NCBI GenBank assembly: GCA_002712305.1
Contig: PATE01000114.1
Coordinates: forward strand, 1-30,887
DNA length: 30,887 bases
DNA from: Gemmatimonadota bacterium
Lineage (GTDB): Bacteria; Latescibacterota; UBA2968; UBA8231
Reading direction: 5' to 3'
Shown here piece after piece: positions 15,745-25,657 of this stretch. The notes beneath the pieces were generated by a model that had not been told where the DNA came from, did not search any database, and was given only the letters and a program-made list of their open reading frames with translations. Position 1 is the stretch's first letter. Each line of letters begins with the position of its first letter. A program made the translations under genes and the position numbers.

Positions 15745-15771
15745 GTCCGGTGTGGGCGCAGCGTGTTGCCC

Positions 15772-17970
15772 ATGGCTGACCCCGAAAACCTTCCTCTCGA
15801 TCGTGTCCTTGAGCGGCTGAAGGACCCGACTCCGGGTAATGTCTGGGTCGAATCACCGCAGGGCCCCACAGCGCGCCACCTGATCCTGACCCAACTGCAG
15901 ACCTGGCTCGGCGCCGGGATCGCTCCTCGACACATCCTCGTCCTGCTGCCACAGCTGGATCGTCGTGAGCACTACCGTCGCTCGTTGGCGGCGATGCTCG
16001 ATGACCCCGCCCTGTCGGCCGGCGTGGGCATTCAGACCTACTACGGACTTGCCTCGCGGGCGGTAAGGTTGCTCTGGCCCGATGTCGCCGCTGCAGCCGG
16101 TTTTGGCAACCCGCTGGATCCACCGGTTTTCCTCACCTACGAAACGGCCCAATATCTGATGAGCCAGATCGTTCAGCCCAAGGTGAGTGAAGGGTACTTT
16201 GAAGGGCTCACCATGCGCCCTCAGCGCATTCTCTCGCAGTTGCTGGACAATCTCAACAAGGCCGCCGTCAACGGATATCCCCTGGAAGAGGTCGGACAAC
16301 GGCTGAAGGCCGCCTGGACGGGTGAGGCGGAGAGTCTCCGATACTTCGATCAGGCACAGACGTGCATCGAAGTGTTCCGAACTCATTGTCTGCAGCACAA
16401 TCTGGTGGATATCTCCCTGGCCATCGACCTGTTCCATCGGTTTCTGCGACCGGGCGATGCCTGTGAAGCCTATCTGTCCCAATTCACCTATCTGGCGGTG
16501 GAGGGTGTCGAGGAATCAGTACCCGTGGCCCAGGATTTCCTTGCTCACCACATGTCCCGTACCTCCGCTTCGCTGCTCGTCCATCGCAGGCACGGTGGAT
16601 TTCGGGTGTTCCTCGGCGTCGATCCGCTCGGAGCCATCGACCTGCGCGACAGATGCAACCGATCCATTGGTGTCGACAGCCCGCTACGGCCCGTGGACAC
16701 GCTCGCTGAACACATCATTGCCGACCTGAACGATCTGGTCCAGCCCACAGGTGGTGAGCGCCCCCATGCGGAGACGGCCTCGACGACGGTATGTCCAATC
16801 GCGGCGCGGCACCGTGGCGAGATGATCGACCGCGTGGCAACACAGGTGGTCGAACTGGTTCGCAGTGGCGACGCCGAGCCCGGCCAGATCGCGATCGTCG
16901 CTCCCTATGCAGACGGGGTGCTGCGCTTCGTTCTTCAGCAGGCCTTGCGTGAGCACGACATCCCTTTCGCGGTGGTGCGTCGTTTCGAAAGTCTGCGTGA
17001 GGAGCCTCTGGTTCGCGGCGCCCTTGCCCTGGCCGCCCTTGCCCACGAAGGCTGGACGATGAGGCCCCACCCATGGGATGTGGCCGAGGGGCTGGCGGCC
17101 GTGATGGATCTGGATCCGGTTCGAGCAGCCATCCTCGGTAGAGCCGCCTACGATCGTGGCAACGGGTGTCTGCGAAGTCCGACCGAACTGGCTGACTCTG
17201 ATCTGCGTGAACGTCTGGGGAACGAGAAGAGGACGATCTATGAGGGGGTATGGCAGTGGATTCAGCGTATGCGGGAGTCCGAATCGATGCCGCTGGATCA
17301 TTTCCTCCGACGACTGTTTGGTGAGATTCTTTCGCGACCCGATCTCGACCCAGCACACGGCACGCTCTTCGCGCGATTCATTGCCTCTGCAGAGGCTTTC
17401 CGTAAGACGGCGCCGGCCCTCAATCTGGAGGGCCGACAGATTGGCGAGCGTTATGCGGAGATGGTGGCAGAAGGCGTTGTGGCGGCCGCCTACGAAGCAC
17501 CCATGTCGCAAGCCGTGTCCGATGCGGTTCTGGTGGTGGCACCGGTGACGACGTATCTACTCGACGAGCGACAGGCTCGATACCAGTTTTGGCTGGACAT
17601 CGGTTCCATTCACTGGTGGGCCCCTCCTCATCAACCTCTGACCAACCCTCATGTACTGGCGAGACGTTGGCCAATCGGCCAAGCCTGGACGGACCGCCTC
17701 GACTTTCAACAGCGCAACGACGTGCTCGGCCGTCTCGTGCGTGGGTTGTGTGCCCGTGCCAGTGAGAGGATCTACCTCTGCTGGAGTGAACTGGAGACCG
17801 CAGGGGCCGAACAGGACAGCCCTCTGCTGCAGGCGGTGACCGATCTCGTCCTCGATCGATCCGTCATTCAGGGGATCGATTCTCGACAGGAGGGACCCGA
17901 CCAAGGAGGGTTCGATACGCTTGGACTCGACGCCGTCCCCGATGCGGGCCCCACCGACCCCGATGACTGA
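15772..17970 (+). CDS. ATPase-dead UvrD/AddB-like helicase homologue, no nuclease domain
   Basis: 732 aa from ATG 15772 (GTG 15763 adds three residues). The fold follows superfamily 1 helicases but the catalytic motifs are lost. The Walker A position reads ESPQGPTARHLIL (27-39), with no GKT. The Walker B/motif II position reads YLAVEGVEESVPVAQDFL (240-257), where an active helicase has DEAQD. Domain 2A is still recognisable (IAIVAPYADGVLRFVLQQAL from 373, then SLREEPLVRGALAL). This is the pattern of AddB/RexB and RecC, whose helicase modules are inactive. Unlike AddB it lacks a C-terminal nuclease and cysteines for an Fe-S cluster. The stop overlaps the active helicase gene. It is probably the scaffold or DNA-scanning subunit of the complex encoded with the next two genes. 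Confidence 0.75.
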   Translation: MADPENLPLDRVLERLKDPTPGNVWVESPQGPTARHLILTQLQTWLGAGIAPRHILVLLPQLDRREHYRRSLAAMLDDPALSAGVGIQTYYGLASRAVRLLWPDVAAAAGFGNPLDPPVFLTYETAQYLMSQIVQPKVSEGYFEGLTMRPQRILSQLLDNLNKAAVNGYPLEEVGQRLKAAWTGEAESLRYFDQAQTCIEVFRTHCLQHNLVDISLAIDLFHRFLRPGDACEAYLSQFTYLAVEGVEESVPVAQDFLAHHMSRTSASLLVHRRHGGFRVFLGVDPLGAIDLRDRCNRSIGVDSPLRPVDTLAEHIIADLNDLVQPTGGERPHAETASTTVCPIAARHRGEMIDRVATQVVELVRSGDAEPGQIAIVAPYADGVLRFVLQQALREHDIPFAVVRRFESLREEPLVRGALALAALAHEGWTMRPHPWDVAEGLAAVMDLDPVRAAILGRAAYDRGNGCLRSPTELADSDLRERLGNEKRTIYEGVWQWIQRMRESESMPLDHFLRRLFGEILSRPDLDPAHGTLFARFIASAEAFRKTAPALNLEGRQIGERYAEMVAEGVVAAAYEAPMSQAVSDAVLVVAPVTTYLLDERQARYQFWLDIGSIHWWAPPHQPLTNPHVLARRWPIGQAWTDRLDFQQRNDVLGRLVRGLCARASERIYLCWSELETAGAEQDSPLLQAVTDLVLDRSVIQGIDSRQEGPDQGGFDTLGLDAVPDAGPTDPDD

Positions 17971-20230
17971 GGCGACCGGCTTTCAACCCCGTGCAGGACA
18001 GCGCGAAATCCTCGAATACGAGGGCGGCCGGATGGGCGTTGCCGCCGTTCCGGGCAGCGGCAAGACCGCGACGATCGCCGCGTTGACGTCCCGTCTGCTC
18101 GAGCAGAGGGTGGACGGGAAGGGACCGCTTGGGCGACGGGGACGCGTTCTGGTGGTGACGTATCAGAACGCCGCAGTGGATACACTGCGAGGTCGAATCG
18201 GGGCGCGACTGCGCGAGCGCGGTTTGCCTGTCACCGGATTCGATGTGCGCACGCTGCACAGTCTCTCCTTCGGACTGGTTCAGGCTTATCCCGGGCACGT
18301 GGGCACGACGACGGACTTCCGTGTCCTGGACGAAGCCTCAGCGAATGCCTTCGTCGATCGTTCCGTGGCAGACTGGAGTCGGGCACATGTCTCCACCTGG
18401 GGGCGATTGGCACCTGGTGAGGGCAATGTGTACGACGAGCGGTGGGAGGGGCAGTGGCAACGTATCGCACGATCGCTGGCCAGCAGTATCATCGGGGCCG
18501 CGAAGAACCGCCGCCTCGAGTCCGAGGCGGTCATCCGCCTGGCAACCGGCGAACATGCGCAGGGATTGGCCGCCCAACTGGTGCGCATCGGCGGTCAGAT
18601 CTTTGAGGGATACCAGAGACTGGTAGAGACATCCGGTAGCATCGACTTCAACGACATGGTTCGCCTCGCCGTCGCCTTGCTCGAACAGGCAGAGGATGTG
18701 ACCGAACGCCTCGCTCAGCGCTGGCCCGTTATTCTGGAAGATGAGGCGCAGGACAGTGTTCCTCTGCAGGAGGAGTTGCTCGGTCGTCTTACGGCGGCGA
18801 CGGGCAACTGGATCCGCGTCGGTGATCCCAATCAGTCCATCACCAGTACGTTTACCGCCGCCAATCCGAAGTTGCTCCGCGCATATCTTGAGCGTCACGA
18901 TGTGATCGCCGTAGAGATGTCCGTCTCTGGGCGGAGTGCGCACAGGATTCAGAATCTGGCCAACGACCTGGTCCGGTGGACGTGCGACAGGTATCCCCTT
19001 GAGGCGATTCGTGCCCGTGCCTTCCGTGATCAGTCGATGCAGCTCACCGAAGTGGGTGATCCACAACGAAACCCCGTCGACAGTGATGGGCACAGCATTC
19101 TATTTCGCCAGTTCGAACATCGCCATGAAGAGCTGCTGGACACGAGCACTCGTGCGGCGCGTTTCGCCGGTGCGCAGCCGGATGCGACAGTGGCGATTCT
19201 GGTCCCCACGAACAAGATGGGATTTGACGTGGCCGAACTGTTGCGAGAGCGGAAGGTCGGCTTCGACGAACGTCTGCAGAGCTCGCGCAACGTCCGGTCC
19301 GTCGTCGACACGATGGCCAGAGCTCTCTCGCTGGTCGCACAACCAGCCAACTCCCGTGCCTTGGAGCGCGCCTGGCAGTCGCTGGAACTGGCCGGCGGTG
19401 ATTCGCCGAGGGCGACGCCAGATCAGGCCCCCCGTCTTCTGCGCAGTTGCTATCGCCCCGAGCAGCTGTTGGCGCCACGTGAGGAGGAAGACTGGGTGAC
19501 GTCCGATGCCTTTCCTCCCGTGTCGGGTATCGATTCGGACACCTGGCATCGGATCGATCGGTTCGCCCGACGTGTAGCCAAGTGGCTGCCTGCGGCAGCA
19601 CTTCCCGTGGACCAGTTGACGATGGCTCTGGCCCATGACCTGCTGCCAGAAGACGATCTGGCCATGGCCCATGAGATCGCCATGTTTCTGCGCCGGCTCA
19701 GCGATGAGCATCCCGCCTGGCGATTGCCCGAACTGGTGGCTGAACTGAGTGACGCCGCCGTAGGGCGATCGTTGCTCTCCCAACCCGATGAAGGGTACGA
19801 ACCGCAACCCGGTCGCATTACGCTGACGACCCTTCACAAAGCAAAGGGCTTGGAGTGGGATCTCGTCTATGTCCTTGGTGTCGATTCGGTCGAGTATCCG
19901 GCCACGTTAGAGGATGAGTTCCGTGGTCATCAGCAACACCTGGGAGGTGACCCAGCACAGCTCGCACGCACGTGGATGCTGAATGCTGCCGATGGCGGGC
20001 AAGCAACCCTCGATGGCGGCACCGAAGGGCGGCTCGATACGATCGCCGAGCGACTACGTCTGCTGTACGTGGCCATTACACGCGCCTGTCGCTATCTGAG
20101 CCTCAGCTTCAGCGAGTACGTGCCGATGGGCCAGCGAACGCGGCGTGTAGAGCCGGCGTTGGCATTCGAGCAGTTGCAGACGCTCTATCAAGCCAGAACC
20201 GTGACAAGCGACAAGGGCGCTGGAGCATGA
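17963..20230 (+). CDS. UvrD/AddA-like SF1 helicase lacking a nuclease domain
   Basis: 755 aa from ATG 17963 (8-base overlap with the previous stop; ATG 17942 is an in-frame alternative). All SF1A motifs are present: Walker A AVPGSGKT (28-35), Ia TYQNAAVDTLRGRI, II DEAQD (260-264), III VGDPNQSITSTF (from 286), IV with an Arg in SVSGRSAHRI, V LTTLHKAKGLEWD (about 621-633) and VI LLYVAITRA (about 701). It should be a 3'-to-5' DNA translocase. AddA and RecB carry a C-terminal RecB nuclease; here the protein stops soon after motif VI and the nuclease is the next gene, joined by an ATGA overlap. It also lacks the Tudor-like tail seen in the UvrD at 25865-28174, so it is a different subfamily. Confidence 0.88.
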   Translation: MTEATGFQPRAGQREILEYEGGRMGVAAVPGSGKTATIAALTSRLLEQRVDGKGPLGRRGRVLVVTYQNAAVDTLRGRIGARLRERGLPVTGFDVRTLHSLSFGLVQAYPGHVGTTTDFRVLDEASANAFVDRSVADWSRAHVSTWGRLAPGEGNVYDERWEGQWQRIARSLASSIIGAAKNRRLESEAVIRLATGEHAQGLAAQLVRIGGQIFEGYQRLVETSGSIDFNDMVRLAVALLEQAEDVTERLAQRWPVILEDEAQDSVPLQEELLGRLTAATGNWIRVGDPNQSITSTFTAANPKLLRAYLERHDVIAVEMSVSGRSAHRIQNLANDLVRWTCDRYPLEAIRARAFRDQSMQLTEVGDPQRNPVDSDGHSILFRQFEHRHEELLDTSTRAARFAGAQPDATVAILVPTNKMGFDVAELLRERKVGFDERLQSSRNVRSVVDTMARALSLVAQPANSRALERAWQSLELAGGDSPRATPDQAPRLLRSCYRPEQLLAPREEEDWVTSDAFPPVSGIDSDTWHRIDRFARRVAKWLPAAALPVDQLTMALAHDLLPEDDLAMAHEIAMFLRRLSDEHPAWRLPELVAELSDAAVGRSLLSQPDEGYEPQPGRITLTTLHKAKGLEWDLVYVLGVDSVEYPATLEDEFRGHQQHLGGDPAQLARTWMLNAADGGQATLDGGTEGRLDTIAERLRLLYVAITRACRYLSLSFSEYVPMGQRTRRVEPALAFEQLQTLYQARTVTSDKGAGA

Positions 20231-21069
20231 TCGACACGCTGAGCCAGAGTGCCATCGACACCTACCAACGTTGCGCACGCCGCTTTTACCTCAGATATGT
20301 GCAGGGTCTGGACTGGCCTGCACCACTCACGTCATCAGAACTGGACTTTGAGCAGGCCATGCGCCGGGGCGAACACTTCCATCTTCTGATACAGCAACAT
20401 ACTCTGGGGCTGGACGTGACGCCCATGGTGGAAGCCAGTGAAGACCAGATCCTGCGAGACTGGTGGCAGCGCTACCTGAATCAAGCTCAGGCGCTGATCC
20501 CGTCCACGGCCCGGGCTCAATTCAGTGAAGTCGAACTCGGCCTTGGTCTGGCGGGGGTCACGCTGGTGGCCAAGTTCGATCTTGTCGTGGTCGACGCCGA
20601 GGGCGAACTGGTCATCTTCGATTGGAAGACCGGTGTTCCACGCACGGCCCAACAGCTGTCGGCAACGTGGCAGACCATCGTCTACTGTTTCGTCGCGACC
20701 GAATGCGGAGGTCAGCTTGTCGACCCCGCATCCGCGTCGCCAACGCCGGTGTCGCCCGAGTCTGTTCGGTTGACCTACTGGCACGCCCGCGAGGCCGACC
20801 GGCCCGTTCGGCTGCCGTATGATGAGGCCTCCCATGAACAAGCACATCGACGACTGTCGGCCGTGATCATGGAACTAAAGGATCTCGTTGAAAGCGGCGA
20901 GGAAAGTGCCTTCGTCCGTACACCGAACGAAGGAGAGTGTCGCCACTGTCCCTATCGATCCTATTGTGAGAGGGGGCGTGTGGCGGGCCCAGAGATGGAG
21001 CCCGAACAGCTACTCGGAGTCGAGGAGTCGATGAGAGTCGTCGAAGGGCCGAATGACCTGGAAGATTGA
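20227..21069 (+). CDS. Stand-alone RecB-family PD-(D/E)XK nuclease with Fe-S cysteines
   Basis: 280 aa, ATG at 20227 overlapping the helicase stop. It opens with the family motif LSQSAIDTYQRCARRFYLRY (Cys16). The nuclease core has His50 in the GEHFH helix, Asp118 in KFDLVVVD, Asp132 and Lys134 in FDWKTG, and Gln149/Tyr153 in WQTIVY, in the order of RecB/AddB/Cas4 nucleases. Three more cysteines at 238, 241 and 247 (CRHCPYRSYC) give, with Cys16, the C...CxxCx5C iron-sulfur clamp of AddB and Cas4. Cas4 is unlikely without any cas gene or CRISPR array nearby. It most likely provides the single nuclease of the helicase complex encoded by the two preceding genes. Confidence 0.9.
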   Translation: MIDTLSQSAIDTYQRCARRFYLRYVQGLDWPAPLTSSELDFEQAMRRGEHFHLLIQQHTLGLDVTPMVEASEDQILRDWWQRYLNQAQALIPSTARAQFSEVELGLGLAGVTLVAKFDLVVVDAEGELVIFDWKTGVPRTAQQLSATWQTIVYCFVATECGGQLVDPASASPTPVSPESVRLTYWHAREADRPVRLPYDEASHEQAHRRLSAVIMELKDLVESGEESAFVRTPNEGECRHCPYRSYCERGRVAGPEMEPEQLLGVEESMRVVEGPNDLED

Positions 21070-22761
21070 GGCCTCACGAAGGTGTTGCTGCTGGGCACTG
21101 TGTCTGCTGGGTGTTGGGTTGTCCGCGTGCGGCACCGAAGGATCATCGCCGGAGTGGCCCCGTTTTACTGACAGAGCCACAGCCTCCGGTCTGACAGAAC
21201 CGGTCCGAGCTGGAGATGCGCAGAAGGCGGATGTACTAGAAGCCAACACGGGCGGTGTGGCCATCATCGACTATGACGAGGATGGTGATCGGGATCTGTT
21301 CTTCGTCAACGGCGGTGCACGAAGCCCGTACGATGAGGAGGTGCCCCGCTCCATGTTGTATCGAAACGACGGTCGCCTCCAGTTCACGAATGTCAGTGAA
21401 GAATCTGGTGCTGACGTCACCGCGTGGGGGATGGGGGTTGCCGTGTGGGATGTCGACGGCGATGGATGGCCGGACATGTTCCTGAGTGCATGGGGAGCCA
21501 ACCATCTATTCCTCAATCAGCGCGATGGCACCTTCGGGTCGGTTCCCTCGGCCGGGGGGGCAAGTGATGATGGTTGGAGTACAGGCATCGCAGCGGCAGA
21601 CTACGATCTGGACGGCGATGTCGACGTCTACGTCGCACAATATGTGGACCGCCCTGCGGAACTGGAGGCGATCCCTTCCTGTACGTGGCGGGGGATCCCC
21701 GCATTCTGCGGACCTGCCGGTTTGCCGGCGGCGCCCGACAGGCTATACGAACGGACCTGGTATGGCCCCTCGATCTTTCGGGATGCCACCGAGGCGGCAG
21801 AGATCTCCGAACAGATTCCGGCCTATGGGCTTGGGGCGGTGGTAGGCGATCTGGATGCCAACGGGGATCCAGATCTCTATGTGGCCAACGACGCGACGCC
21901 GAATTTCCTCTATGAGAATCGGCACCATACCGCAGATGCCCGGTGGAAAGATCGACTTCATGAAGTCGGCCGCGTGGCGGGTGTCGCCGTCAGCGGTGAT
22001 GGCAGACGGCAAGCAGGAATGGGAATCAGCGTGGGAGATATCGACTCAGATAGTCACGTCGACCTGCTTGTGAGCAACTTCTCTCACGATCACGTCTCTC
22101 ACTATCGACAGCTGGACCCTCTTCGATTTTCAGAGACAGCCTTCGCCAGTGACCTCGGTCGCTGGACGCTTCCCACCCTCGGGTGGGGGACAGGGCTTGC
22201 TGATTTTGACCACGACATGGATCTGGATCTTTTCGTATTCCAATGGACACGTCTATCCACAGGTCGATGAGGCAGGGATCGGCACGACCTATCGCCAAGA
22301 CAATCAACTTCCGCAACGATCATGGTTTCCTTCGCGATGTAACGGTATTGTCTGGATCCGGTCTTCGCGTCACCGCAGTGAGTCGAGGAGCAGCTCTGGG
22401 CGATCTCGATGAGGATGGAGATCTCGATGTGGTGATCGTGAATCTCGACTCGATCCCGAGCCTCATGCGAAACGAGGGAGTATCTGCGGGTTGGCTGAGT
22501 GTCGAACTGGAAGGAACCCGACGAAACCGAATGGCCATCGGGGCGCGCGTCGTGGTGCGCTCTCAGGATGGCCACAGTCAGTTTCGAGAGATCCACGCCG
22601 GAACGGGGTATCTGTCACAGGATGATCACCGGCTCCACTTCGGCACGGGGACCATCGACAGCGTCGAGATTGAAGTTCACTGGCCCGGAGGCAGAGTCGA
22701 GTCTCTCGGCCGAATGGGCGTGCGTCAGCACTTAAGGATCAACTCGGGGAACGACGGTTAA
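21053..22761 (+). pseudogene. CRTAC1-like FG-GAP/VCBS repeat lipoprotein with ASPIC/UnbV domain, broken by two frameshifts
   Basis: The start overlaps the nuclease gene by 17 bases. A lipoprotein signal (CCCWALCLLGVGLSAC, lipobox Cys26) precedes calcium-binding-type repeats such as DYDEDGDRDLFFVNG, DVDGDGWPDMFLSA and DYDLDGDVDVYVAQ. The frame holds to DLDLFV near 22237, then meets TGA at 22268-22270. One base on, it resumes as SNGHVYPQVDEAG...TTYRQDNQ, and after a second shift near 22307 as FRNDHGFLRDVTVLSGSG. It then runs through DLDEDGDLDVVIVN and an ASPIC/UnbV domain (GTRRNRMAIGARVVV, HWPGGRVESL) to TAA. One extra T at 22238/22239 and two missing T's near 22309 would explain both. The restored protein is about 570 aa, probably an outer-surface lipoprotein of unknown ligand. 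Confidence 0.75.
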
Positions 22762-24152
22762 CGCTGCAGCGCTCCGTACAGCGTGTGCGACGTGGTCCGT
22801 TCGATCTTTACCTGGACCAACTGATTCATCTCCACGGGATCGGAGAGAATCGTCACCTTGCCCTGCGGTGACCTGCCGAAGTAGGTCGGCTGCCCGTCGG
22901 CGTCGGGACGACGGCTGCGTCCTTCGACGAGCACCTCAACCGTGCGTCCGACCCAGGTCTGGTTCGTCTCCCGCGAAATGCTCTCCTGCATTTCGATGAT
23001 CTGCTGGAGTCGAGCCCCTTTGACGTCGTCGGGCACGTCGTCAGCCATGCCCTTGTGAGCGAAGGTGCCGGATCGTTCGGAGTAGCGGAACATGAAGGCA
23101 CTGTCGAAGCGTACCTCCTGCATGAGCTCTACGGTCTGGCGAAAATCGTCATCGGACTCGCCGCAGAAGCCGACGATGATATCCGTCGTGATGGCAAGAT
23201 CGGGGATTTCGGTGCGCAGTCGTTGTACCAACTGTCGATACTCACCAATCGAGTAACCGCGCCTCATCGCCTCCAATTGGGGGTCAGAACCCGATTGCAC
23301 GGGAAGGTGAAGGGACGGGCAGACCTGTGGGAGGCGACCCATCGCCTCTATCGTCTCGTCGTTGAAATCGGCGGGGTAAGGGGATGTGAAGCGGATCCTG
23401 CGGATTCCATCGATCTGCGCTACCTCGTCGAGGAGCTGGGCGAAACTTCGCTGGCCGTCGTCGTAGGAGTTCACCGTCTGGCCCAGGAGAGTGACTTCGC
23501 GGAAACCCGATTCGGCCAACTCACGTACCTGTCGCAGAATCTCGTCGGATGGCACACTCCGCTCTCGTCCGCGTACATAAGGAACGACACAGAATGTGCA
23601 GAACTTGTCGCACCCTCGAATGATCGTGACCCATGCGTTGGTTCCCTCCTTACGAACCGGATCGATGCCGACATAGTTCTCGGTGCGGCTCAGACGCGTG
23701 TCGAGGAGGGTTTCATCCGCCGTTTGAGCGAGCAGCTCAGGAAGACGTTGATAGGCGTCTGGGCCTGCGATCAGATCAACGAAGGGCGCTCTCGCAGGCA
23801 GCGTGTCCGTCAAGTGTTGCGCCATGCACCCGAGCACGCCGATGGTGAGGTCTGGGCGTGTTCGACGAAGTCCGTGCAATTGGCCGACCCGGCCGATAAC
23901 GCGTTTCTCCGCATTCTCTCGCACGGCGCAGGTGTTGACGAGAATGACATTCGCGTCTTCTGGGCCGTCCACGATGCGGTATCCTGCATCTGAGAGGATG
24001 CTGGCCACAACCTCCGTGTCGGCCACGTTCATCTGGCAGCCATAGGTCTCGATGTAGACGCTTCGGTGGTGGAGGGGAGCTGTCCGTGCGTGTGCCGAGG
24101 TCGGTGAGGGGACCTCGGATAACAGTTCGATGTCGGGGAGGGACTGGCTCAC
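22758..24152 (-). CDS. miaB: tRNA-2-methylthio-N6-dimethylallyladenosine synthase MiaB
   Basis: 464 aa. The N-terminal MTTase domain holds three cluster cysteines: Cys39 (ETYGCQMN), Cys75 (NTCAVRENAE) and Cys109 (LGCMAQ). The radical-SAM motif CDKFCTFC gives Cys181, 185 and 188, and a C-terminal TRAM domain follows. CQMNVADTE and VVPYVRGRERS are MiaB-specific, as opposed to RimO or MtaB. It thiomethylates i6A37 in tRNAs reading U-starting codons. About 30 extra residues precede the usual start, but the ATG overlaps the mtaB stop as ATGA, supporting this start. The stop shares two bases with the convergent CRTAC1-like gene's stop. Confidence 0.95.
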   Translation of the reverse strand: MSQSLPDIELLSEVPSPTSAHARTAPLHHRSVYIETYGCQMNVADTEVVASILSDAGYRIVDGPEDANVILVNTCAVRENAEKRVIGRVGQLHGLRRTRPDLTIGVLGCMAQHLTDTLPARAPFVDLIAGPDAYQRLPELLAQTADETLLDTRLSRTENYVGIDPVRKEGTNAWVTIIRGCDKFCTFCVVPYVRGRERSVPSDEILRQVRELAESGFREVTLLGQTVNSYDDGQRSFAQLLDEVAQIDGIRRIRFTSPYPADFNDETIEAMGRLPQVCPSLHLPVQSGSDPQLEAMRRGYSIGEYRQLVQRLRTEIPDLAITTDIIVGFCGESDDDFRQTVELMQEVRFDSAFMFRYSERSGTFAHKGMADDVPDDVKGARLQQIIEMQESISRETNQTWVGRTVEVLVEGRSRRPDADGQPTYFGRSPQGKVTILSDPVEMNQLVQVKIERTTSHTLYGALQR

Positions 24153-25657
24153 GACGATGCCACCGCCTGTACGTCGTCATGTACCCCGATCGCATGCTCG
24201 CCTGGATGCTCAGCACTTCCAGTCTCAACCCCTGTCAGGGGTACGGCAGGTATAGTCCCTGTCATCGGAGTAGAGAGAGAGCCGAAGGCGAACTGCTCGC
24301 GGGCTTCACGGATCTTGACATTCACCAGTTGATGGGCCTGAACCCGAGGATCTTCCACGCCACCCCCATCTTCGATCAGGACCTGCACATAGTTGTCGGT
24401 CCTCCCCACGGCAAGACCACTGCCATCGGATCGACGAGTCTCTTCGATCAAGACCTCAACCTGCTGGCCTACATGGGATCGATGAAAGGCGAGTCGTCGG
24501 GTCTGGCTCCATTCGATCAGCCTGCGCGCTCGAGTCGACTTCACCGCGCGGGGAGCGTGGTCGGGCAGTCTCTCGGCGGGTGTGCCCTGGCGCAGGGAAT
24601 AGGAGAAAACATGTAGGTAACTCATGGGGAGGGAGTCGAGCAGTTCGTGCGTGTTCTCGAACTGCGCCTCCGTCTCGCCCGGAAAGCCCACCATCACGTC
24701 GGCACCGATGCAAGCACCGGGGACGGTGTCGGCGAGGCGCTGGATTCGGTCGGCGTAGTGCTGGCGGTCGTATCGTCGCCCCATTCGGCGAAGCACGGTA
24801 TCATCGCCACTTTGCAGTGGAATATGGTAGTGACGGCACAGGTGGCTCGAGTGGGCGGCAAACCCGATCAACTCGTCGGTCACGAAATTGGGTTCCACGG
24901 AGTTGAGACGGATTCGTCGCAGCCCATCAACCCCTTCAAGCTGGGCAAGGAGGTCGACCAATTCGGTAGGGCTCGAGTCGGTTCCGTGCCGGTCGTGTCC
25001 GAAGCTTCCCGTGTGCACTCCTGTGAGGGCCAGTTCGACATAGCCTGCCTCGACCATGGCGCGGGCCTGCGTCAAAATCTCCTGGACGGGGCGACTCACG
25101 CTGACTCCCCGAACCTGGGGAATGATGCAATAGGTGCAGTGCTCGTCACAGCCATCCTGAATCTGAAGGGTGCCGCGTGTTCGTCCGCCCTCGACCATGC
25201 CATCGATCTGTAGAAACTTTTCAGTCTTGGGGGGGCTCATCGGATTCAGGTTTAGGTCCGGTGAACCCTGGATTCGACGTTGAACGGCCTCGACCAACTG
25301 CGTCTTCTCGCCATTGGCGACGATGAGATTGGCCCCCGCGTCTGACAACTCGCCGGGACGACGCTGTGCGTAGCAACCGGTTGCTACGACAATCGCCTCC
25401 TCGCCCGTACGCCGGGCAGTGCGCACAGCTCGGCGAGAGTCTGCATCTCCAGCACCGGTGACCGTACACGTGTTGACGACGTACACGTCGGCCTCCTCCT
25501 CGAATCCGACCATGTCAAAGCCGGCCCGAGAGAATCCGGATCGTAACGCCTCGCTCTCATAAAGGTTCAGCTTGCAGCCGATGTTCTTGATCGCCACTCG
25601 AAGCGGCTGATGATCAACGGCAGGGGGGTGTTCGACGTGCGAGTCTGACACAGGCAT
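24149..25657 (-). CDS. mtaB: tRNA t6A37 methylthiotransferase MtaB
   Basis: 502 aa. MTTase cysteines are Cys28 (IGCKLNLYESE), Cys64 (VNTCTVTGAGD) and Cys95 (ATGCYAQ). The radical-SAM motif CDEHCTYC gives Cys170, 174 and 177, followed by IIPQVRG. IGCKLN and NTCTVT are typical of MtaB, which converts t6A37 to ms2t6A37 in ANN-decoding tRNAs. The TRAM region (VEVLIEET, VNVKIREAREQFAFGSL) is followed by a ~40-residue tail rich in Pro, Thr and Glu without homology I recognise. The 4-base overlap with miaB suggests coupled translation. No good ribosome binding site precedes the ATG. Confidence 0.93.
   Translation of the reverse strand: MPVSDSHVEHPPAVDHQPLRVAIKNIGCKLNLYESEALRSGFSRAGFDMVGFEEEADVYVVNTCTVTGAGDADSRRAVRTARRTGEEAIVVATGCYAQRRPGELSDAGANLIVANGEKTQLVEAVQRRIQGSPDLNLNPMSPPKTEKFLQIDGMVEGGRTRGTLQIQDGCDEHCTYCIIPQVRGVSVSRPVQEILTQARAMVEAGYVELALTGVHTGSFGHDRHGTDSSPTELVDLLAQLEGVDGLRRIRLNSVEPNFVTDELIGFAAHSSHLCRHYHIPLQSGDDTVLRRMGRRYDRQHYADRIQRLADTVPGACIGADVMVGFPGETEAQFENTHELLDSLPMSYLHVFSYSLRQGTPAERLPDHAPRAVKSTRARRLIEWSQTRRLAFHRSHVGQQVEVLIEETRRSDGSGLAVGRTDNYVQVLIEDGGGVEDPRVQAHQLVNVKIREAREQFAFGSLSTPMTGTIPAVPLTGVETGSAEHPGEHAIGVHDDVQAVASS

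Follow-up and report, generated by a model that had tools for sequence, protein, structure and literature searches.

The locus analysed here raises the question of whether three overlapping genes encode a DNA end-processing enzyme in which the nuclease is a subunit of its own. To our knowledge, three architectures are usually distinguished among bacterial end resection enzymes, namely RecBCD, AddAB, and AdnAB, in all of which the nucleases are fused to helicase chains. The three genes, designated P1, P2, and P3, lie in a stretch of 30,887 nucleotides (the window; that is, the whole stretch of DNA that was analysed) and had been read in a preliminary description as an inactivated helicase, an intact helicase, and a separate nuclease. 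The results indicate that together their products quite probably constitute an AddAB-like helicase-nuclease of three polypeptides for the processing of DNA double-strand ends, where the complex itself, its strand polarity, and its role in repair are what we infer.

Gene layout and the three predicted subunits

All three genes lie on the + strand. P1 (15772..17970, 732 aa) begins with an ATG at 15772 and has its stop at 17970; an in-frame GTG at 15763, taken as the start, would give 735 aa. P1 overlaps P2 (17963..20230, 755 aa, ATG at 17963 and stop at 20230) by 8 bp, and P2 overlaps P3 (20227..21069, 280 aa, ATG at 20227 and stop at 21069) by 4 bp. Re-reading of the open reading frames thus returned the same coordinates and overlaps as the preliminary description. 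The order P1-P2-P3 is kept throughout the Latescibacterota family of the host genome, with a 4-bp P1/P2 overlap in 12 of 18 loci, and because it persists in relatives as low as 33% identity the gene set is far beyond chance. Natural P1-P2 or P2-P3 fusions are absent from the Latescibacterota and Chloroflexota loci inspected, and in every homologous locus read, as in the window, P3 is encoded by a gene of its own.

The gene immediately upstream, of PTS EIIA type (PF00359; 15289..15744, + strand), is separated from the P1 ATG by a gap of 27 bp and is not regarded as part of the enzyme. Its position ahead of P1 is conserved at most loci within the Latescibacterota family, where together with TMEM260/YfhO genes it mostly precedes the trio. 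A pair of adjacent genes for MiaB/RimO-type radical SAM methylthiotransferases (22758-25657 of the window, - strand) adjoins the trio in several relatives.

Searches with P1 alone gave no match in Pfam or NCBIfam, its sequence alone gave none in the PDB, and comparison with viral contigs likewise gave none. Among 66 members of the P1 family, UvrD-helicase (PF00580) is matched by 54 and ADDB_N by 6. The AlphaFold2 model of P1, built from the 66-sequence alignment with a mean pLDDT of 89.6, has an SF1 helicase fold, and Foldseek relates it to the SF1 helicases UvrD/Rep, AddB, AdnB, AddA, and RecB; the SF1 fold on which the reading of the first protein as a helicase depended is thus present. VIA-align superposes the P1 model on AdnB with Z 23 over 613 residues at 4.8 Å and on Rep with Z 28 over 447 residues at 3.3 Å. 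The P1 and P2 models both align to AdnB over 600+ residues at an rmsd of ∼4.8 Å, and their Foldseek TM scores are 0.62-0.64 for the best AdnB chains as against 0.48-0.58 for free UvrD/Rep. As judged from these models, the core of P1 superposes best on Rep, whereas its whole-chain arrangement is nearer to that of complex-forming subunits.

The ATPase motifs of P1 are degenerate, in agreement with the earlier proposal that they are dead. In the window the Walker A motif reads SPQGPTAR, the GK[TS] element being present in 52 of the 66 family members and absent in 14, that of the window included. Motif II reads E-G-V-E-E in the window and mostly D-(N/S/Q)-x-E-E in relatives, and the usual DExQD pattern is absent from the family members examined. 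A profile comparison of P1 with AddB, as had been proposed, placed AddB first with a score of 124, followed by UvrD (105) and AddA (80). On profile scores AddB is P1's best fit by a modest margin, and P1 is accordingly described here as a putative AddB-like inactivated SF1 helicase subunit.

P2 matches PF00580 (E=3.7e-36) and UvrD_C, and its motifs I (AVPGSGKT), II (EDEAQDS), III, V, and VI are near-invariant. No PDDEXK match was found in its 755 residues, and the protein ends after motif VI, all of which bears out the description of P2 as an intact SF1 helicase that is devoid of a nuclease domain. The AlphaFold2 model (pLDDT 91.2) has UvrD, AdnB, and AddA as structural matches, and the profile scores are 436 for UvrD, 381 for AddA, and 172 for AddB. 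By these sequence criteria P2 is an SF1A motor but not demonstrably an AddA orthologue, and orthology to AddA is not claimed because UvrD profiles fit equally well.

P3 matches PDDEXK_1 (PF12705) with E=8e-32. Among 40 homologues the residues H52, D118, D132, K134, Q149, and Y153 are invariant, as are the cysteines C16, C238, and C241, whereas C247 is at least 90% conserved. The P3 profile scores 117 (99.5%) against the AddB nuclease domain versus 30 (59%) against that of AddA. This conserved catalytic set and the AddB-like spacing of the cysteines uphold the view of P3 as a single RecB-family nuclease with AddB-type cysteines. The corresponding cysteines of AddB hold an Fe-S cluster (Yeeles et al. 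2009, as cited in PMC4824097), and by analogy those of P3 form a probable Fe-S staple. Assignment of P3 to Cas4 was considered and rejected, since the NCBIfam cas4 model gives 24.5 bits against a cut-off of 65 and Pfam gives PDDEXK_1. The profile also matches PDB entries 9iab (E 0.0014) and 9iac (E 0.077) weakly; these are, like P3, standalone PD-(D/E)XK nucleases (273-277 aa), although very distant from it, and the searches turned up neither a publication on them nor any partner proteins.

Comparison with known helicase-nucleases and a proposed mechanism

With AddAB (Bacillus subtilis AddAB, or RexAB) the trio shares one active SF1A motor (P2, with intact motifs and with AddA among its profile and fold matches), an inactivated SF1 helicase-like partner (P1, with its preference for the AddB profile over that of UvrD), an AddB-type nuclease with four cysteines including C-x2-C-x5-C (P3), and the addB-then-addA gene order. 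It differs from AddAB in that the AddB nuclease is fused C-terminally to the inactivated helicase, whereas P3 is a separate protein; in that AddA bears a second, C-terminal nuclease, whereas P2 is without such a domain; and in the length of the helicase subunits, which at about 700-770 aa are shorter than those of AddAB. RecBCD resembles the trio in that its RecB-family nuclease is the only one and in that one subunit, RecC, to which P1 is comparable, is helicase-like but inactive, but the RecB nuclease is fused to its motor, unlike in P2, and the cluster has no gene for a RecD-like second motor. The resemblance to mycobacterial AdnAB is that of the models, which align to AdnB as described above; AdnA and AdnB, however, each combine motor and nuclease in one chain, whereas P1 and P2 have no nuclease domains. 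UvrD-Cas4 fusions (Hudaiberdiev et al. 2017, PMC5704561) likewise pair an SF1 helicase with a PF12705 nuclease, but they are single-chain proteins found mostly in restriction-modification contexts, and no P1-like subunit is described for them.

The claim that the architecture is unlike those of AddAB and RecBCD therefore stands, in that P3 is a separate polypeptide and neither P1 nor P2 carries a nuclease. Because the trio lacks two features that define AddAB, as well as those proper to RecBCD and to AdnAB, it is classed here as a variant of AddAB-like type. That it descends from AddAB is not proven, since the P2 profile is slightly nearer to UvrD and the AddB preference of P1 is modest. No earlier description of the trio was found in the literature searched, with subscription papers and preprints largely outside it, and its novelty is provisional.

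In AddAB one SF1A motor unwinds the DNA end; of the two nucleases, that of AddB cleaves the 5'-ended strand and that of AddA the 3'-ended one, and Chi is read by the inactivated AddB helicase (PMC4824097). In the proposed mechanism P2 would be the single 3'-5' SF1A motor, P1 would be its inactivated helicase-like partner, serving as a scaffold for the complex and guiding (or scanning) the single-stranded DNA, and P3 would be the sole nuclease. The predicted complex would unwind the end and digest the 5'-ended strand, so that a 3' single-stranded tail remains for RecA. Resection of the 5' strand is predicted because the trio has an AddB-type nuclease only, without one of AddA type, and no Chi switch would be needed to spare the 3' end. 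This prediction is qualified by RecBCD, in which one nuclease can cut both strands.

Distribution and co-occurrence of the trio

A scan of GTDB genomes returned 353 P1 relatives. The best 80 of these belong to metagenome-assembled genomes (MAGs) named Latescibacterota, Gemmatimonadota, or similar, and to Chloroflexota, mostly Anaerolineae, and in most of these 80 loci P2 and P3 are nearby. The conservation of gene neighbourhood, a check proposed in the preliminary description, thus extends over one Latescibacterota family and many Chloroflexota. P1 is present in 80 of 150 sampled Anaerolineae, and a strong P1 match occurs in about 39 of 300 sampled Chloroflexota.

Co-occurrence was assessed in 80 Chloroflexota genomes, 38 with P1 and 42 without. 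P2 is found in 38/38 genomes with P1 and in 0/42 without (Fisher 1e-23), and P3 in 34/38 and 0/42, respectively (Fisher 2e-18), both values ignoring shared ancestry. P1 and P2 but no P3 were detected in the remaining four (G225, G315, G345, and G359), from which P3 may be missing in the assembly or may have been replaced. In some Chloroflexota the genes are unlinked, lying on different contigs in G114 and G373 and with P3 ∼350 kb away in G186, so that the co-occurrence is not merely inheritance of an operon; that the genes are far apart and yet co-occur points to a joint function. Correlations between the pairwise distances of the three proteins are 0.90-0.98 (r), and every one of the three trees shows the Latescibacterota clade, weakly supported (0.48) in the case of P1. 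Conserved order, overlaps of 4-8 bp, and near-perfect co-occurrence together substantiate the co-production suggested earlier from the overlaps in the window.

Joint function might also be achieved without a stable AddAB-like machine, if the proteins acted sequentially in one repair pathway, the helicase step falling to P2 in the manner of UvrD, ssDNA exonuclease activity of Cas4/Dna2 type to P3, and a regulatory or adaptor function to P1. In keeping with such a pathway are the P2 profile, which is at least as near to UvrD as to AddA, the separate P3 polypeptide, encoded far from P1/P2 in several genomes, and the four genomes with P1-P2 in which P3 was not detected. Nevertheless, a sequential pathway is unlikely in view of the near-perfect co-occurrence and conserved overlaps, the dead helicase fold of P1, which in AddAB and RecBCD is the kind used for a structural subunit, and the fit of both models, P1 and P2, to AdnB/AddA (600+ residues aligned at about 5 Å). 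A three-polypeptide AddAB-like complex remains the preferred reading.

Seven of the Chloroflexota genomes without P1 (G091, G102, G111, G115, G119, G123, and G127) encode other standalone AddB-type PDDEXK_1 nucleases of ∼260-390 aa. These do not match P3 and may belong to other split helicase-nucleases.

Relation of the trio to known helicase-nucleases of its hosts

The preliminary description had suggested that the trio could be the main double-strand-break machine of its lineage and had proposed a search of the same genome for addAB. That search found an AddAB-like pair on contig C51, consisting of an AddA-like gene (1224 aa, UvrD and PDDEXK) and an adjoining AddB-like gene (1086 aa, with a C-terminal PDDEXK domain containing C-x2-C-x5-C). 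Such a pair also occurs in the Latescibacterota relatives examined, and the suggestion of a main role in this lineage is not sustained. Judged by gene content, the trio in the window's genome would work beside the AddAB-like pair and is not the sole candidate there.

The presence of this pair, together with the loss of the P1 Walker A motif in the window's clade, might be taken to indicate that the trio is a degenerate, redundant AddAB paralogue that is being lost from the window's genome. This is highly improbable, because all three frames are open, the catalytic residues of P2 and P3 are intact and conserved across the family, the Walker A loss is clade-wide, and nearly all P1 frames of the family are open at 33-75% identity.

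Other helicase fusion genes were observed in the same genomes. In the window's genome, contig C44 encodes a DinG/XPD-like SF2 helicase with a PDDEXK_1 domain at its N terminus (L006, 4354-6795, 814 aa), PDDEXK_1 matches being found in ORFs of similar size (∼790-830 aa) in the relatives G080, G081, and G082, and contig C48 encodes a helicase of UvrD type to which a TIGR00375-family domain is fused N-terminally (L028, 148-3381). A helicase-nuclease of 1135 aa in G082 (L171, contig C103) has a C-terminal C-x2-C-x5-C, adjoins an AddB-like gene, and gives a long uninterrupted match to the P2 profile in its helicase part; it is possibly AdnAB-like rather than AddAB.

The situation in Chloroflexota is different. 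Absence of AddAB, RecB, and AdnAB was judged by a search for the nuclease domain (PF12705), in which E. coli, B. subtilis, and Corynebacterium controls were positive. No large PF12705 helicase-nuclease was found in 25 of 37 Chloroflexota with P1, only P3 and small proteins of Cas4 size, and such large proteins occur in 9/37 genomes with P1 versus 27/42 without (p=0.0006, Fisher, shared ancestry ignored). Many of these genomes are MAGs of unreported completeness, so that single absences are weak but the overall pattern is less so. The PDDEXK protein of 958 aa in G345 is not a fusion of trio members but a separate protein, and its helicase part gives a weak match to the P2 profile. In Anaerolinea thermolimosa the PF00580 helicases are UvrD and P2 only, and recJ lies ∼3 kb from the trio cluster. 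The domain searches suggest that the trio is probably the sole enzyme of the AddAB/RecBCD/AdnAB kind in many Chloroflexota, mostly Anaerolineae.

The same distribution bears on the earlier suggestion of an anti-phage nuclease, in which the trio would be a defence system comparable to the nuclease-helicase sets of Gabija or UvrD-Cas4. The PADLOC models for GajB and Cas4-like proteins do match P2 and P3, UvrD-Cas4 fusions occur in defence contexts (PMC5704561), and phage DNA is degraded by AddAB/RecBCD anyway. The GajB match is generic, however, a cross-hit that is stronger for the window's housekeeping UvrD (405 bits) than for P2 (135), and the neighbours tested, both in the window and in Anaerolinea thermolimosa, include no defence genes. 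The trio is single-copy and stable in position within the Latescibacterota family, and it is both frequent in the sampled Anaerolineae and inversely associated with large helicase-nucleases, leaving a defence role very unlikely. Gabija itself was rejected, as no GajA (ATPase-TOPRIM) gene adjoins P2, the direct neighbours being P1, P3, and the EIIA gene.

A broader scenario is advanced tentatively, as conceivable rather than probable: in many Chloroflexota (mostly Anaerolineae), AddAB/RecBCD may have given way to a dedicated, possibly Chi-independent machine for 5'-strand resection whose nuclease subunit is detachable, which became the only processor of double-strand ends there and which was shared with one Latescibacterota family that also has AddAB. 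If the proposed function is correct, this widespread set, in which the one nuclease stands free, would represent a fourth layout of end resection enzyme and would account for how broken ends could be processed in many Chloroflexota where the known enzymes are absent. The trio would also offer a natural test of whether recombination requires the second nuclease and Chi switching.
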